From positions 62,001 through 126,000 of the forward strand of contig NZ_KI440836.1 of assembly GCF_000474945.1 (NCBI RefSeq): a DNA stretch of 64,000 nucleotides. Reading direction: 5' to 3'. The notes under the pieces were generated by a model. That model was not told where the DNA came from and ran no database searches. It saw nothing but the letters and a program-made list of their open reading frames with translations. This document shows positions 27,668-36,167 of this stretch, in pieces. How positions within the stretch are numbered: the first letter of the stretch is position 1; every line of letters starts with the position of its first letter. The stretch comes from Solimonas soli DSM 21787. GTDB taxonomy: Bacteria > Pseudomonadota > Gammaproteobacteria > Nevskiales > Nevskiaceae. The translations under genes were made by a program, and so were the position numbers.

Positions 27668-27883
27668 ATGCCTTCCGTCCGCGTTCGCGATAACGAGCCT
27701 TTCGAAGTGGCGCTGCGCCGCTTCAAGCGCACCTGCGAAAAGGCCGGTGTGCTGACCGACCTGCGCAAGCACGAGTACTTCGAAAAGCCGAGCCAGGAAC
27801 GCAAGCGCATGCACGCCGCCGCCGTGAAGCGCCAGGCCAAGAAGGTTCAGCGCGAATCGAATCGCCGGGTTCGGCTTTACTAG
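27668..27883 (+). CDS. rpsU: 30S ribosomal protein S21
   Basis: 71 residues, the standard length. It reads [20 protein letters not shown] and ends in the basic [13 protein letters not shown] tail. S21 helps initiate translation on the 30S subunit. It heads the classic rpsU-(yqeY)-dnaG-rpoD block and is divergent from tsaD. A purine-rich AGAGAGTGA precedes the ATG. A strong terminator follows, so read-through would be needed for co-expression with the downstream genes. Confidence 0.98.
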
Positions 27884-27939: not shown

Positions 27940-28017
27940 CAAAGAAAAGCAGGACACTCAAGACCCCGGCCGCAAACCGGGGTTTCGTTGTTTCTACCGT
28001 TTTGCCGAGGAGGCTCC

Positions 28018-28464
28018 ATGACCGACCTGAAGACCCGCGTCACCGAAGACGTGAAGACCGCGATGAAGGCCGGCGAGAAGGAACGCCTGTCGGTGCTGCG
28101 CATGCTGCAGGCCGAGCTCAAGCAGCGCGAGGTCGTCGAAAGCAAGACGCTGACCGACGCCGAGGTGCAGTCGGCGGTCGAGAAGATGATCAAGCAGCGC
28201 CGGGACTCGGAGAGCCAGTTCCGTGCCGCCAATCGCGCCGACCTCGCCGACAAGGAGGCCGCCGAGATCGCCGTGCTGATGGGCTATCTGCCGCAGCAGC
28301 TCAGCGAGGCCGAGGTCGATGCGCTGATCGGCCAGGCGATCGCCGAGACCGGCGCCGCCGGCGGCAAGGACATCGGCAAGGTCATGGGCTGGATCAAGCC
28401 GAAGGTCCAGGGCAAGACCGACATGGGCAAGCTGTCGGGCTTGATCAAGGCCAAACTGGGGTGA
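28018..28464 (+). CDS. GatB/YqeY domain protein
   Basis: 148 residues of the YqeY family: LKTRVTEDVKTAMKAGEKERLSVLRML at the N-terminus, IKQRRDSESQFRAANRADLADKEAAEIAVLMGYLPQQL in the middle and IGKVMGWIKPKVQGKTDMGKLSGLIKAKL at the end. The fold resembles the tRNA-binding tail of amidotransferase GatB, but the function is not established. GAGGAGG precedes the ATG at 28018. It sits between rpsU and dnaG, its usual place in many proteobacteria. It is a soluble cytoplasmic protein. Confidence 0.93.
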   Translation: MTDLKTRVTEDVKTAMKAGEKERLSVLRMLQAELKQREVVESKTLTDAEVQSAVEKMIKQRRDSESQFRAANRADLADKEAAEIAVLMGYLPQQLSEAEVDALIGQAIAETGAAGGKDIGKVMGWIKPKVQGKTDMGKLSGLIKAKLG

Positions 28465-28598: not shown

Positions 28599-30344
28599 AT
28601 GGCCCGGATTCCCGATTCCTTCATCCACGATCTGCTCGCGCGCACCGACATCGTCGAGCTGATCGGCGCGCGCGTCGATCTCAAGCGCGCGGGCAAGGAG
28701 TTCAAGGGTCTCTCGCCGTTCACCAGCGAGAAATCGCCGTCATTCTTCGTCTCGCCGCAGAAGCAGATGTTCTTCGACTTCTCCTCGGGCAAGAACGGCA
28801 CGGCGATCTCCTTCCTCATGGAGTACGACCGTCTCAGCTTCGTCGAGGCGGTCGAGGAACTGGCCAAGCGCGCCGGCGTCGAAGTGCCGCGCGAAGGCGG
28901 CTTTGATCCGCGCGTGGTCATGGACGGCCCGCTCGATGCGCTCGCCGCCGCGCAGCGCTTCTTCACCGAGCGCCTGCGCCAGGCGCCGCCGGCGATCGAG
29001 TACCTGAAGAAGCGCGGCGTCAGCGGCGACACCGCCAAGCGCTACGGCATCGGCTTCGCGCCGGACAACTGGGATGCGTTGACCAGGTTCCTGCACGAGA
29101 CGCAGCACGCGCTGACCGCTGGCCTGCTGATCGAGCGCGAAGGGCGCGACGGCGCCTACGACCGCTTCCGCAACCGCGTGATGTTCCCGATCCGCGACAC
29201 GCGCGGCCGCGTCATCGCCTTCGGCGGCCGCACGCTGGCCAACGATCCGGCCAAGTATCTGAACTCGCCGGAGACGCCGCTGTTCCACAAGGGCCGCAAT
29301 CTGTACGGCCTCTACGAAGCGCGCACCGCGACGACCGGCGCCCTGCCCTATCTCGTCGTCGTCGAGGGCTACATGGACGTGGTGATGCTCGCGCAGCACG
29401 GCATCACCCAGGCGGTCGGCACGCTGGGCACGGCGACCACGCGCGAGCACGTGCAGCTGCTGTTCAAGTCGGCGCCGAAGATCGTCTTCTGCTTCGACGG
29501 CGACCGCGCCGGCCGCTCGGCGGCATGGCGCGCGCTGGAGCAGGTGCTGCCGGAAATGCACGAAGGCCGCGAGGCCGTGTTCATGTTCATGCCGGAGGGC
29601 GAGGACCCGGACACCTGGGTACAGAAAGTCGGCAGCGAAGCATTCAGGGCGGCGATCGACGAGGCCGCGCCGCTGACGCAGTTCCTGCTCGACACCTTGC
29701 TCAAGCAGGTCAATCTCGGCTCGCTGGAGGGCCGCGCGCGGCTGATCGCACTGGCCCGGCCACATGTCGAGAAGCTGCCGGCCGGCGCGCTGCGCATGCT
29801 GCTGATCGACGAGTTGGCGCGCCGTGCGCGACTCGGCCGCGACGACGTCGAAGCCATGCTCGGCGCGCCCACGGCGGCGACGGCCGCGGTGCCGGTGATC
29901 GCCGAGCCCGAGCGCCCGGCGCCCGGCGCGGCGCGTCCGGTGCGGCGGGCGATGCAGCTCCTGCTCGAACGCCCGGAGATGGCCGAGCGCGTCGACAATC
30001 TCGACCTGCTCGCGCAGGCCGACGCGCCCGGCGTCGAAGTGCTGGTCGAGGCGATCGACTTTTTCCACGCGCATCCCGAGGCGCGTGCCGCGCAGCTGGT
30101 CGAGGCCTGGAAGGACACGCCGAAAGGCCGCGGCGTACAGAAACTGCTGTCGATGGAAACGCCGCTCGTCGATGAAACGCTTGAAAGCGAGTTCCGCGAC
30201 ACCATCAGGCTACTAACGTTCAGGGCGCTGGAGAGCGAGGCGAACCGCCTGCTCGAGGAATCCCGGCATCGCGAACTGACGCGCGCCGAACTGGGCGTGA
30301 TCGAATCGCTGCATCGCAGCCGCCCGCCCCGATCCCGACGATGA
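28599..30344 (+). CDS. dnaG: DNA primase DnaG without zinc ligands in its N-terminal domain
   Basis: 581 residues. It makes RNA primers for replication with DnaB. The N-terminal domain has normal zinc-finger surroundings but the four ligands are gone: Cys-x2-His-x17-Cys-x2-Cys reads Ser39, Thr42, Asp60 and Ser63 (FKGLSPFTSEKS and MFFDFSSGKNG). The polymerase core is normal: YGIGFAPDNW, RVMFPIRDTRGRVIAFGGR and the TOPRIM motifs VVEGYMDVV and FCFDGDRAG. The C-terminal helicase-binding domain (about 440-581) is present. It is followed by rpoD after 102 bases. The loss resembles the Bacteroidetes-type domain but the rest reads as gammaproteobacterial. Confidence 0.96.
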   Translation: MARIPDSFIHDLLARTDIVELIGARVDLKRAGKEFKGLSPFTSEKSPSFFVSPQKQMFFDFSSGKNGTAISFLMEYDRLSFVEAVEELAKRAGVEVPREGGFDPRVVMDGPLDALAAAQRFFTERLRQAPPAIEYLKKRGVSGDTAKRYGIGFAPDNWDALTRFLHETQHALTAGLLIEREGRDGAYDRFRNRVMFPIRDTRGRVIAFGGRTLANDPAKYLNSPETPLFHKGRNLYGLYEARTATTGALPYLVVVEGYMDVVMLAQHGITQAVGTLGTATTREHVQLLFKSAPKIVFCFDGDRAGRSAAWRALEQVLPEMHEGREAVFMFMPEGEDPDTWVQKVGSEAFRAAIDEAAPLTQFLLDTLLKQVNLGSLEGRARLIALARPHVEKLPAGALRMLLIDELARRARLGRDDVEAMLGAPTAATAAVPVIAEPERPAPGAARPVRRAMQLLLERPEMAERVDNLDLLAQADAPGVEVLVEAIDFFHAHPEARAAQLVEAWKDTPKGRGVQKLLSMETPLVDETLESEFRDTIRLLTFRALESEANRLLEESRHRELTRAELGVIESLHRSRPPRSRR

Positions 30345-30446: not shown

Positions 30447-32339
<1,893 letters not shown>

Positions 32340-32381: not shown

Positions 32382-32483
32382 CGTTCGCCGCCGAACCGAC
32401 GGCGCGGAACCCCGGCGCAAGAGGTATTGCCGCGCGCGCGCGCCGGCTCATACTGTGCGCAACATCGGCATGGATGGATTTTC

Positions 32484-35400
32484 TTGCGGCGGAATCCGGC
32501 AGCGGTTGCAAACTCGTCGACGCCGCGACCCGCCGCGCTGCACGCCGGCGCCGCGCTCCTGCTGGTGGCCGCCGCCTATTTCGCCAGCGGCCGCCTGGGC
32601 CTGCGGCTGGCGATTCCGCCGGGCTATGCGACCGCGGTGTGGCCGGCCTCCGGCATCGCCCTGGCCTGCGTACTCGTCTTCGGCCGCCGCGTCTGGCCCG
32701 GCGTCTGGCTCGGCTCCTTCCTGATCAACGTCTGGACCTCGCTCGACCCTTCCGCGCCGACGGCACTGCTGCGCTCGCTGCTGCTGCCGGCCGTCATCGC
32801 CTGCGGCGCCTCGGCGCAGGCCCTCGCCGGCGCCGCCCTGATCCGCCGCTTCGTCCGTCATCGCAACATTCTCGAACAGGAGCTCGAGGTCATCCGCCTG
32901 CTCGTGCTCGGCGGGCCGCTGGCCTGCCTGATCGGCGCGACCGTCGGAACCGGCGGCCTGTGGCTGAGCGGGCAGATCGAGCGCAGCGCCGTGCTGCTCA
33001 GCTGGTGCACGTGGTGGAGCGGCGACGTCATCGGCGTGCTGATCTTCACGCCGGTCGTCCTGGTGTGGACGGCGCGGCCCTACCGGCTGTGGCTGCGGCG
33101 GCAGCTGGCGGTCACGCTGCCGCTGCTGACGCTGTTCACGCTCGTCGTCGTCGTGTTCGTGCTGACCAGCGTGCGCGAAGCGGAACGTCTGCGTGCCAGC
33201 TTCGACAACGAGGCCAATCACGCCGAGCAGCAGCTGCACGCCAGGCTCGACCGCTACACGATGTCGCTGACCGCCGTCGCCGGCCTGTTCGGCAGCTCGC
33301 AGTCGCTGACCGCCGCCGAGTTCGACCGCTTCGCGGCCTTGCTCTTCGAGCAGACGCCGGAGCTGTTCGCGATCAGCTGGAACGCCGTGGTGCCCGAGAG
33401 CGAACGCGCCGCATTCGAGCGCGACATGCGTCGCCAGGGCTTCAGCGGTTTCCGCATCTACCAGCTCGACGGCAAGGGCCAGGCCATTCCCGCAGTGCCG
33501 CGCGACCAGCACATCGTCGTGACCTACGTCCGATATTCGGTGCCGGCGCCCGGCGCGCAGGGGCTCGACATCGGCTTCGATCCGGACCGGCGCGAGGCCC
33601 TGCTGCGCGCCGCCGAACTCGACACGCCGGTGGCGACGCGCCAGCTCCAGCTCATCGGCGACCAGCACACGGTCGACGGCCTGCTGATGATGCTGGCCGT
33701 GCGCGGCCAGGGCCGCGTGCTCGGCTACGCGACGCTGGTGCTGCGCTCCGCCGACCTGTTCGGCGCGATGCTCGACGAACTGTCGGCGGCCGGCATCGGC
33801 CTGCGCGTCGTGGACCGTTCGGCCTCGACGCCGCGACCGATGTTCGAGGCAGGCGCCGTGGCAGACACGGACCGGCGCGCGCTGCGCCACAGCACGGTGC
33901 TGCACTTCGCCGACCGCGACTGGGAGCTGCAGTATTCGCAGCCCGCCACCTACTGGGTCGGCCACAGCGCCTGGCAGACCTGGCTGGTGCTGGCCGGCGG
34001 CATGCTGCTCACGGCCCTGCTCGGCGTGCTGATGCTGGTGCTGATCGGCCGCAACGCGCGTGTCGAACGCACCGTGCAGGAGAGCACGGCCGAACTGCGC
34101 GCCAGCGAGGAGCGCTTCCGCAGCCTGCTTGAATCGGCTCCCGACGCCATGGTGATCATCGGCAGCAACGGCCGCATCGTGCTGGTGAACTCGCAGGCCG
34201 AGCGGCTGTTCGGCTACGCGCGCGACGAGCTGCTGGGCCAGCCGGCGCAGCTTCTGCTGCCGCAGTACGCCCACGACGCGCAAGAGCGCGACGAGACTGC
34301 CGCATCGTCCTTGCCGCAGACGGCCGGAACCCACGCCTTCCAGGGCCGGCGCCGCGACGGCAGCGAGTTCTTCGTCGACGTCTCGCTGTCGCCGCTGCAC
34401 ATCGGCAGCGAGCGCGTGGTCACCGCCGCGATCCGCGACGTCACCGCGCGGCGGCAGGCCGAGGAGCGCCTCAACCGCGCGCATTCGGTGCTGGCGGCGA
34501 CGCTGGAATCGACGACCGACGGCATCGTCGTCGTCGACCGCGCCGGCAAGATGCGGCACACCAATCGCAACTTCATCGAGATGTGGGGCCTGGCGGAGGA
34601 TGCCGCCGGCAACACCGAGGCGCGCCGCGCGCTCGACGCCGTGCTGCCGCAGCTGCGCCATGCGCAGGCTTTCGTCGACCGCGTCGCCGAGCTGCACGCG
34701 CAGGCCGACGCCGAGAGCTTCGAGCTGATCGAGCTCAAGGACGGCCGGGTGTTCGAAAGCTACTCGCGGCCGCAGGAAGTCGGCGGCCAGATCGTCGGCC
34801 GCGTGTGGAGCTTCCGCGACATCACGCAGCGCCGTTCGACCGAGGCGCGCATCCGCCATCTCGCGCAGCACGACGCGCTCACCAACCTGCCGAACCGCGC
34901 GCTGCTGTCCGACCGCCTCGAGACGGCGATCAAGGCCGCCGCGCAGGCCGCGCAGATGCTGGGCGTGATGGTGCTCGACATCGACCACTTCAAGCGCATC
35001 AACGATTCGCTCGGCCATGAGAAAGGCGACGAGCTGCTGCTCACCGTCGCCGGCCGCCTGCGCGAAGCGACGCGCAAGAGCGACACCGTGGCCCGCCTCG
35101 GCGGCGACGAATTCGTGGTGCTGCTGACCGATATCCACCATCGCGACGGCATCGCCCACGTCGCCAACCAGATCGTGCGCGAACTGTCGCTGCCGATCCG
35201 CCTCGGCGCACAGGAACTCAGCGTGACGCCGAGCATCGGCATCAGCGTCTATCCCGACGACGCCCGCGATGCGGTCGGCCTGATCAAGTGCGCCGACATG
35301 GCCATGTACCACGCCAAGGCCCGCGGCCGCGGCAACTGGCAGTGGTACCACCACGACCTGCAGCGCGCCAACGAGGAACAGCTGTCGCTGGACAATGCCC

Positions 35401-36167
35401 TGCATCGCGCCGTCGAGCGCAACGAGTTCTCGCTGCACTACCAGCCGGTGCTGGCGACCGACAGCGGGCGCGTGGTCGGCATGGAGGCCTTGCTGCGCTG
35501 GAACCATCCCGAACGCGGGCCGGTACCGCCGAGCAGCTTCGTCGGCATCGCCGAGGAGTCGGGGCTCATCGTGCCGATCGGCGACTGGGTCCTGCACACC
35601 GCCTGCCGCGAGGCACGCCTGCTGCAGGAACGCAGCGGCGAGCCGCTGAGCCTGGCGGTCAACGTCTCGCCGCGCCAGTTCCGCGAGCAGACTCTGGTGG
35701 CGCGGGTCGCCGCCGCCCTGTCCGCCAGCGGCCTGCCGGCGCACTGCCTGACGCTGGAGATCACCGAGAACCTGCTGCTGGTCAGCCGCGAGGAAACCGT
35801 CGCCACGCTGCAGCAGCTGCGCGCACTCGGCGTGTCGATCGCCATCGACGATTTCGGCACCGGCTATTCGAGCCTGTCCTACCTGACGCGCTTTCCGGTC
35901 AACAAGCTGAAGATCGACGGCTCCTTCATCCGCGACCTCGCCGAGGATTCCCGCGATGCCGCCGTGGTCACCGCGATCATCGCCATCGCGCGCAGCCTGC
36001 AGATGGGCGTGGTCGCGGAGGGCGTGGAGACGCCCGCGCAGCTCGCCTATCTGCGCGATCGCGGCTGCGACGAAGTGCAGGGTTTCCTGATCAGCGAGGG
36101 CGTGCCCTGCGATGCATTCGTGGCGACCCTGGAGCGCGTGCAGCGGCGCGGTTTCAGCGCCGACTGA
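32484..36167 (+). CDS. MASE1-CHASE-PAS-PAS-GGDEF-EAL cyclic-di-GMP signalling protein
   Basis: 1227 residues from a TTG at 32484 (a TTG at 32427 would add 19). Domains in order: MASE1 membrane sensor (about 20-200, opening ASGRLGLRLAIPPGYATAVWP), a membrane helix, a periplasmic CHASE domain (235-430), a second helix (495-520), two PAS domains (535-645 and 665-785), GGDEF (790-955) and EAL (965-1220). GGDEF is intact at 873-877 with the RxxD inhibition site five residues before it. EAL residues are complete: EALLRW, NVSPRQF, EITEN, DDFGTGYSS, KIDGSF and AEGVET. Both synthesis and hydrolysis of c-di-GMP are therefore possible. CATACT about 30 bases before the TTG may be its -10 box and favours this start. 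Confidence 0.9.
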   Translation: MRRNPAAVANSSTPRPAALHAGAALLLVAAAYFASGRLGLRLAIPPGYATAVWPASGIALACVLVFGRRVWPGVWLGSFLINVWTSLDPSAPTALLRSLLLPAVIACGASAQALAGAALIRRFVRHRNILEQELEVIRLLVLGGPLACLIGATVGTGGLWLSGQIERSAVLLSWCTWWSGDVIGVLIFTPVVLVWTARPYRLWLRRQLAVTLPLLTLFTLVVVVFVLTSVREAERLRASFDNEANHAEQQLHARLDRYTMSLTAVAGLFGSSQSLTAAEFDRFAALLFEQTPELFAISWNAVVPESERAAFERDMRRQGFSGFRIYQLDGKGQAIPAVPRDQHIVVTYVRYSVPAPGAQGLDIGFDPDRREALLRAAELDTPVATRQLQLIGDQHTVDGLLMMLAVRGQGRVLGYATLVLRSADLFGAMLDELSAAGIGLRVVDRSASTPRPMFEAGAVADTDRRALRHSTVLHFADRDWELQYSQPATYWVGHSAWQTWLVLAGGMLLTALLGVLMLVLIGRNARVERTVQESTAELRASEERFRSLLESAPDAMVIIGSNGRIVLVNSQAERLFGYARDELLGQPAQLLLPQYAHDAQERDETAASSLPQTAGTHAFQGRRRDGSEFFVDVSLSPLHIGSERVVTAAIRDVTARRQAEERLNRAHSVLAATLESTTDGIVVVDRAGKMRHTNRNFIEMWGLAEDAAGNTEARRALDAVLPQLRHAQAFVDRVAELHAQADAESFELIELKDGRVFESYSRPQEVGGQIVGRVWSFRDITQRRSTEARIRHLAQHDALTNLPNRALLSDRLETAIKAAAQAAQMLGVMVLDIDHFKRINDSLGHEKGDELLLTVAGRLREATRKSDTVARLGGDEFVVLLTDIHHRDGIAHVANQIVRELSLPIRLGAQELSVTPSIGISVYPDDARDAVGLIKCADMAMYHAKARGRGNWQWYHHDLQRANEEQLSLDNALHRAVERNEFSLHYQPVLATDSGRVVGMEALLRWNHPERGPVPPSSFVGIAEESGLIVPIGDWVLHTACREARLLQERSGEPLSLAVNVSPRQFREQTLVARVAAALSASGLPAHCLTLEITENLLLVSREETVATLQQLRALGVSIAIDDFGTGYSSLSYLTRFPVNKLKIDGSFIRDLAEDSRDAAVVTAIIAIARSLQMGVVAEGVETPAQLAYLRDRGCDEVQGFLISEGVPCDAFVATLERVQRRGFSAD

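Follow-up and report, generated by a model that had tools for sequence, protein, structure and literature searches.

A conserved zinc-free variant of the replicative primase DnaG in Solimonas soli and its family, most likely arisen in parallel with those of other bacteria

The dnaG gene of Solimonas soli DSM 21787 is an open reading frame of 581 aa at 28599..30344 on the forward strand of the 64-kb stretch of DNA analysed here (the window), and all other features given below lie on the same strand. It follows two reading frames that we take, by their sequence, to be rpsU (27668..27883, 71 aa) and, between rpsU and dnaG, a yqeY/GatB-like gene (27988..28464), and it precedes one that we likewise take to be rpoD, for a sigma-70 factor (30447..32339); rpsU-dnaG-rpoD is the usual gene cluster. 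A long reading frame directly 3' of rpoD (32427..36167) presumably encodes a membrane-bound sensor that combines PAS, GGDEF and EAL domains. The dnaG product was recognized as a bacterial replicative primase by TIGR01391 (417.5 bits, cut-off 283.6) and is 84% identical to DnaG of Solimonas variicoloris. Its N-terminal, formerly zinc-binding domain (residues 3-98, 28605..28892) passed the CHC2 zinc finger profile PF01807 at residues 5-98 with 100.7 bits (cut-off 24.9) despite the absence of the ligands. The RNA polymerase core (about residues 112-425, 28932..29873) is intact, with PF08275 at 121-242, Toprim_2 at 253-339 and PF10410 at 361-414, and the acidic motifs expected in the Toprim core of DnaG are present as EGYMDV at 256 and DGDRAG at 300. 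In the C-terminal DnaB-binding region, PF10410 and PF08278 both scored above their cut-offs.

Standard DnaG holds its zinc by the ligand set Cys-x2-His-x17-Cys-x2-Cys. The first-pass annotation had claimed that the window DnaG lacks all four of these ligands, and the codons bear this out exactly, from 28713 to 28787: the first Cys is replaced by Ser39 (tcg, 28713..28715), the His by Thr42 (acc, 28722..28724), the third ligand, a Cys, by Asp60 (gac, 28776..28778) and the last Cys by Ser63 (tcg, 28785..28787). Two further residues take part in the same recurrent switch, namely Ser62 (tcc, 28782..28784), normally Gly, and Lys65 (aag, 28791..28793). Residues 1-98 contain no Cys and one His, so that no alternative zinc site is visible in the domain. 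Substitute ligands within the domain were rejected more generally, as each of the 109 zinc-free sequences aligned below has at most one Cys there.

A search of the whole genome (99.79% complete) found one match each to PF01807 and PF08275, and no second dnaG, zinc-bearing or other. Chance or sequencing error at the ligand positions could be excluded because relatives in the family share the loss. In a first sample of 41 genomes, window included, Cys39, His42 and Cys63 were absent in all 25 members of the window's family, which we infer to be the Nevskiaceae, and all four ligands were kept in every one of the 16 genomes that represented the order's other families. When 58 genomes of the family were searched, 55 matched, and 53 of the 54 chromosomal DnaGs read, window included, lacked Cys39, His42 and Cys63 and were zinc-free. 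The claim that all four ligands had gone together holds for the window DnaG itself and not for the family, since residue 60 is Asp in 36 of the 53 zinc-free proteins and still Cys in the other 17; only positions 39, 42 and 63 always change together.

The one zinc-bearing chromosomal DnaG among the 54 (locus L126 of genome G430) has the full Cys-His-Cys-Cys set together with Lys65. This genome shares its genus code with a zinc-free one (G020), and its zinc set is either the ancestral state or a regain. Two other genomes (G425 and G412) have additional primases whose ribbon reads Cys-Pro-Phe-His (L133, L134 and L135, in reading frames of 493, 895 and 1011 aa), which are probably plasmid or phage genes; in G425 only two such plasmid- or phage-like primases were seen, and none was found in the window genome. 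Neither ribbon nor core of DnaG was found in three genomes of 92-98% completeness (G420, G436 and G437). Loss of the domain was considered for these three and set aside, because the core is missing as well as the ribbon, which makes assembly gaps the likelier reason.

An alignment of 190 distinct rows, 81 zinc-bearing and 109 zinc-free, revealed two all-or-none states, Cys-His-Cys-Cys in the former and Ser39-x-(Asp/Cys)60-(Ser/Thr/Ala)63 in the latter, and none of the 190 had lost just one ligand. Within the zinc-free rows, Ser39 is invariant (109/109), position 42 varies among Thr, Ser, Gln, Asn, Lys, Gly and Ala, and position 60 is Asp (78) or Cys (31) and no other residue. Position 62 is Ser or Ala and position 63 Ser, Thr or Ala. 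Lys65 occurs in 93 of the 109 zinc-free rows, with another residue in 16, and in 4 of the 81 zinc-bearing rows, where Ala is the common residue (63/81). Glu65 appears in four rows, all with Cys60 and never with Asp60, which fits a charge pairing between the two positions, four rows being too few for a test. Of the zinc-free rows read, only that of a viral primase (L229) keeps His42, beside Ser39, Asp60 and Ser63.

The same residues emerged from a scan of 423 columns for convergence, in which zinc-free rows of Nevskiaceae (53) and Alphaproteobacteria (55) were compared with zinc-bearing rows (47 gammaproteobacterial and 33 other), the window's duplicate row and G430 being left out. The five most convergent columns, all of them in the zinc site, were 39, 62, 63, 65 and 60, ahead of every column of the core, and the next was 218. 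Weaker convergence was seen at core residues 113, 177, 217, 218, 234 and 247 (window numbering), which might mark where the core contacts the altered domain. At the codon level, Ser39 is encoded by TCN in all 47 zinc-free rows of the family, and Ser62, across 48 distinct family rows (G430 included), uses TCN 27 times and AGY 20 times; the use of both codon sets points to selection on serine at 62.

The first-pass annotation had mentioned a similar Ser/Asp/Ser pattern as one that the DnaG of Bacteroidetes would carry. Beyond what it noted, Alphaproteobacteria share the switch, positions 62 and 65 belong to it, and Cys60 is often kept. A DNA-pattern scan for the Asp60 form, with one genome per species, yielded 30 stretches, 16 gammaproteobacterial and 14 alphaproteobacterial by title or resemblance, although the pattern is GC-rich and demands Lys-Gln and Asp60, so that these numbers are no census. 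The former came from Solimonas, Sinimarinibacterium, Fontimonas, Stagnimonas, Nevskia, Polycyclovorans and other Nevskiaceae or unplaced sources, and the latter from Bradyrhizobium, Nitrobacter, Rhodopseudomonas, Ponticaulis, Brevundimonas, Hyphomonadaceae and others. Ser39 was visible in 29 of the 30, the remaining locus being cut, and no chromosomal DnaG of Bacteroidota was among the 30 stretches of this GC-rich scan. A profile of the zinc-free ribbon matched 344 of 369 Gammaproteobacteria, with the window at 96.4 bits and the next best at 80.3, yet it is an imperfect judge, as zinc-free loci outside the class (L180-L183) scored only 75-80 bits. The 29 best-scoring other Gammaproteobacteria all had Cys-His-Cys-Cys, and three relatives from the order, read out of the other 314 matches, were zinc-bearing.

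In a search of 398 Pseudomonadota, the same profile matched 381. Among 49 loci read outside Gammaproteobacteria, chosen among the highest scores and hence enriched, 42 were zinc-free and 7 zinc-bearing; such loci were called alphaproteobacterial by resemblance to named records. Thirty further loci were zinc-bearing without exception (30/30, from 46 genomes, most of them chosen for low score or from other families). Viral sequences carry both states. Of the best 80 among 242 relatives in IMG/VR, 29 were zinc-free and 51 zinc-bearing, under patterns that favour the zinc-free ribbon. Four of six phage records read were zinc-free (Flavobacterium phages laban6-1 and FPSV-D15, Cellulophaga phage Ingeline_1 and Caulobacter phage Sansa) and two were zinc-bearing (Porphyromonas phage phage024a and the faecal phage MT838903); phage024a, Sansa and MT838903 were read from the best 20 of 314 records in a phage collection that matched the window DnaG. 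In a plasmid collection 292 records matched the window DnaG, a count that takes in matches whatever their ligand residues.

Whether the zinc was lost in parallel or the domain was acquired by a swap, the two origins first proposed for this protein, was addressed by separate trees of core and domain, and parallel loss in place is the origin favoured by these phylogenies. In the core tree, built without the N-terminal domain, Nevskiaceae formed one clade inside the gammaproteobacteria (SH-aLRT 99) with the alphaproteobacterial forms apart, and uniting the two zinc-free groups cost 162.7 log-likelihood units (AU p = 3.2e-6). In the domain tree, from which the switched columns 39, 42, 60, 62, 63 and 65 were removed, support of 100/98 joined Nevskiaceae to the zinc-bearing gammaproteobacteria, and making them one group with the alphaproteobacterial forms was again rejected (86.6 units, AU p = 1.5e-5). 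L183, a row on a very long branch, was omitted from both tests of union. A swap from Alphaproteobacteria is rejected by these two AU tests, and the tree comparisons establish a separate origin of the Nevskiaceae form from the alphaproteobacterial ones. The domain tree was also extended by six rows, four from Bacteroidota phages and two from IMG/VR loci. Nevskiaceae remained a clade there (97/83) and a union of all zinc-free forms was rejected (p = 6e-5); placing Nevskiaceae together with those five of the added rows that are zinc-free was not rejected (p = 0.10), in a tree where the phage branches are long and Bacteroidota are represented by phages. The gammaproteobacterial domains were not one clade in the best extended tree, and their grouping was not rejected (p = 0.24). 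By these domain data, a donor among Bacteroidota phages is unsupported, though not formally rejected.

On the core tree, the zinc state requires at least four changes. In another family (code f214), zinc-free L182 is sister to zinc-bearing L184 with a support of 98, which suggests a further separate loss. Within Nevskiaceae, residue 60 switches between Asp and Cys at least seven times on the same tree. A placement of G430 as sister to all other family members was not rejected in two tests (p = 0.79 and p = 0.07). Its domain grouped with the Nevskiaceae domains in the extended tree without switched columns (97/83); when these columns were included, Nevskiaceae were not one clade and G430 fell outside the well-supported group to which the window belongs.

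The view that the zinc-free domain is conserved and under selection, as first suggested for the window protein alone, gained support from its near family-wide occurrence, from low dN/dS and from the predicted fold. Between the window and six relatives, dN/dS of the domain was about 0.02-0.24, and in all six pairs the domain had a lower dN than the core. Within Nevskiaceae, domains shared a mean pairwise identity of 79.8% and cores one of 70.0%, compared with 73.1% and 56.0% in 15 zinc-bearing relatives of the order. The ribbon itself (residues 36-68) was slightly less conserved in Nevskiaceae than in the zinc-bearing relatives (80.7% vs 84.2%), although the Nevskiaceae cores are more alike, which hints that the ribbon may be slightly freer without zinc, with some relaxation. 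An AlphaFold model from 28 aligned sequences (mean pLDDT 90.6, pTM only 0.70) had strands and helices along the domain and would retain the ribbon fold, with an rmsd of 1.0 Å to 1d0q_A of B. stearothermophilus over 92 alignment columns at 48% identity; since AlphaFold builds zinc ribbons with no zinc supplied and may merely have learned the fold, the match means compatibility and no proof. The model does not fix the placement of the domain, because pTM is 0.70 and the two-domain structure 2au3 of Aquifex, superposed whole, fits poorly (rmsd 11.1 Å).

Considering these results, the window DnaG is a real, conserved zinc-free variant of a known enzyme, one that most likely arose in parallel, and we regard it as most likely that a cluster of hydrogen bonds and charges took the place of zinc and that the domain still works. 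In standard DnaG the zinc ion clamps one loop of the ribbon to another. Without zinc, Ser39 would lie on one of these loops and Asp/Cys60-x-Ser62-Ser63-x-Lys65 on the other, and the hydroxyls of Ser39, Ser62 and Ser63 could form a hydrogen-bond cluster with Asp60 or Cys60 and Lys65, contacts proposed from residue positions. The positive charge of Lys65 would stand in for the zinc ion, with Asp60 or the Cys60 thiolate as its partner. Lacking the ligands, the domain presumably binds no metal, and it would still read the template start site and hand the template to the polymerase core. We hold with good confidence that this protein is a working replicative primase whose family lost the zinc early and whose replacement cluster keeps the ribbon folded. 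Somewhat better than an even bet, in our judgement, is a broader proposal: that the replicative primase left zinc at least twice, probably four times, by one five-residue switch (Cys39Ser, Gly62Ser and Cys63Ser, Lys at residue 65, and Asp or the original Cys at residue 60), the rows read including no single-ligand intermediate, that zinc was a pure structural clamp, and that residue 60 has a role independent of zinc.

An ancestor of the Nevskiaceae may instead have acquired its N-terminal domain, or no more than the central ribbon, by transfer from a zinc-free donor among Alphaproteobacteria, Bacteroidota or phages, as the occurrence of the same residues in Alphaproteobacteria and phages and the unrejected union with Bacteroidota-phage and related domains (p = 0.10) would allow. 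We consider this improbable, because the domain without its six switched columns joins the zinc-bearing gammaproteobacteria, and because G430 joins the Nevskiaceae domains once these columns are removed and not when they are included. Moreover, a change in place is expected to leave Cys60 in gammaproteobacterial surroundings, and several of the 17 family members with Cys60 have exactly such surroundings (e.g., VSPTKQFYHCF), which counts against a swap. Still less probable is a site for a hard cation, Mg or Ca for example, held by Asp60 and Ser/Thr hydroxyls. Asp and three hydroxyl residues do occupy the four ligand positions of the window, and Asp60 is the commoner state (78/109), but Cys60 in 31 of 109 rows, a free position 42 and a Lys usually two residues after position 63 do not suit a cation.

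That the N-terminal domain is decaying or dispensable, as the loss of ligands itself and the slightly lower identity of the ribbon could indicate, appears very improbable to us against a Nevskiaceae domain more conserved than its core, low dN/dS, an invariant Ser39 and a Ser62 kept with both codon sets. A different kind of explanation concerns the cause, namely that the loss was selected for general zinc economy or against zinc-displacing stress such as nitric oxide; it is compatible with the replacement of zinc by a residue cluster, and we consider it rather unlikely, if a little less so than a swap. DnaG, PriA and TopA of Salmonella are reported to be zinc proteins modified by nitric oxide (PMC6094482), so that a DnaG without zinc would offer this agent one target less. 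The zinc proteins looked at in the window genome were PriA, LigA and TopA. A genome-wide saving of zinc was rejected, as the cysteine cluster of PriA and the four cysteines of LigA are kept there. The TopA zinc-ribbon family was found neither in the window genome nor in a zinc-bearing relative of the order (G025), and its absence decides nothing because this relative also lacks a match.

The window DnaG shares domain order, catalytic core and predicted ribbon fold with zinc-bearing DnaGs of known structure (1d0q and 2au3), and differs from them in the absence of all four ligands, in Gly62 to Ser and in Ala65 to Lys. With the zinc-free alphaproteobacterial DnaGs of Bradyrhizobium, Nitrobacter, Rhodopseudomonas, Brevundimonas and Hyphomonadaceae it shares the switch at 39, 60, 62, 63 and 65, whereas the surroundings are VND.K there and VSP.K in Nevskiaceae, and the origins are separate. 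The phages laban6-1, FPSV-D15 and Ingeline_1 share a Ser-x-(Asp/Cys)-Ser-Ser-Gly-Lys pattern, but theirs are phage genes on long branches. In the open-access literature, no description of a zinc-free chromosomal DnaG was found among the titles and abstract openings of the matches listed, which is no proof of absence. The nearest parallel found in print is the primase-like domain of human TWINKLE, in which the homologous site is reported to lack the conserved cysteines and to bind no metal, and whose function in animals is described as not firmly established (PMC8688847). In contrast to this domain, that of the window sits in the only DnaG of the cell.

The natural zinc-free DnaGs of Solimonas, Bradyrhizobium, Rhodopseudomonas and Brevundimonas offer ready pairs for probing the role of the metal and are a natural example of the replacement of a zinc site. 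They also bear on drug ideas that target the N-terminal domain of DnaG. If the proposed model is true, zinc in DnaG is a structural clamp only, replaceable by a lysine-centred hydrogen-bond cluster, and residue 60 has a zinc-independent role that tolerates Asp or Cys only. The recurrence of the same replacements in unrelated bacteria and phages suggests, at the level of sequence comparison, that the zinc associated for so long with the initiation of DNA replication may be dispensable.
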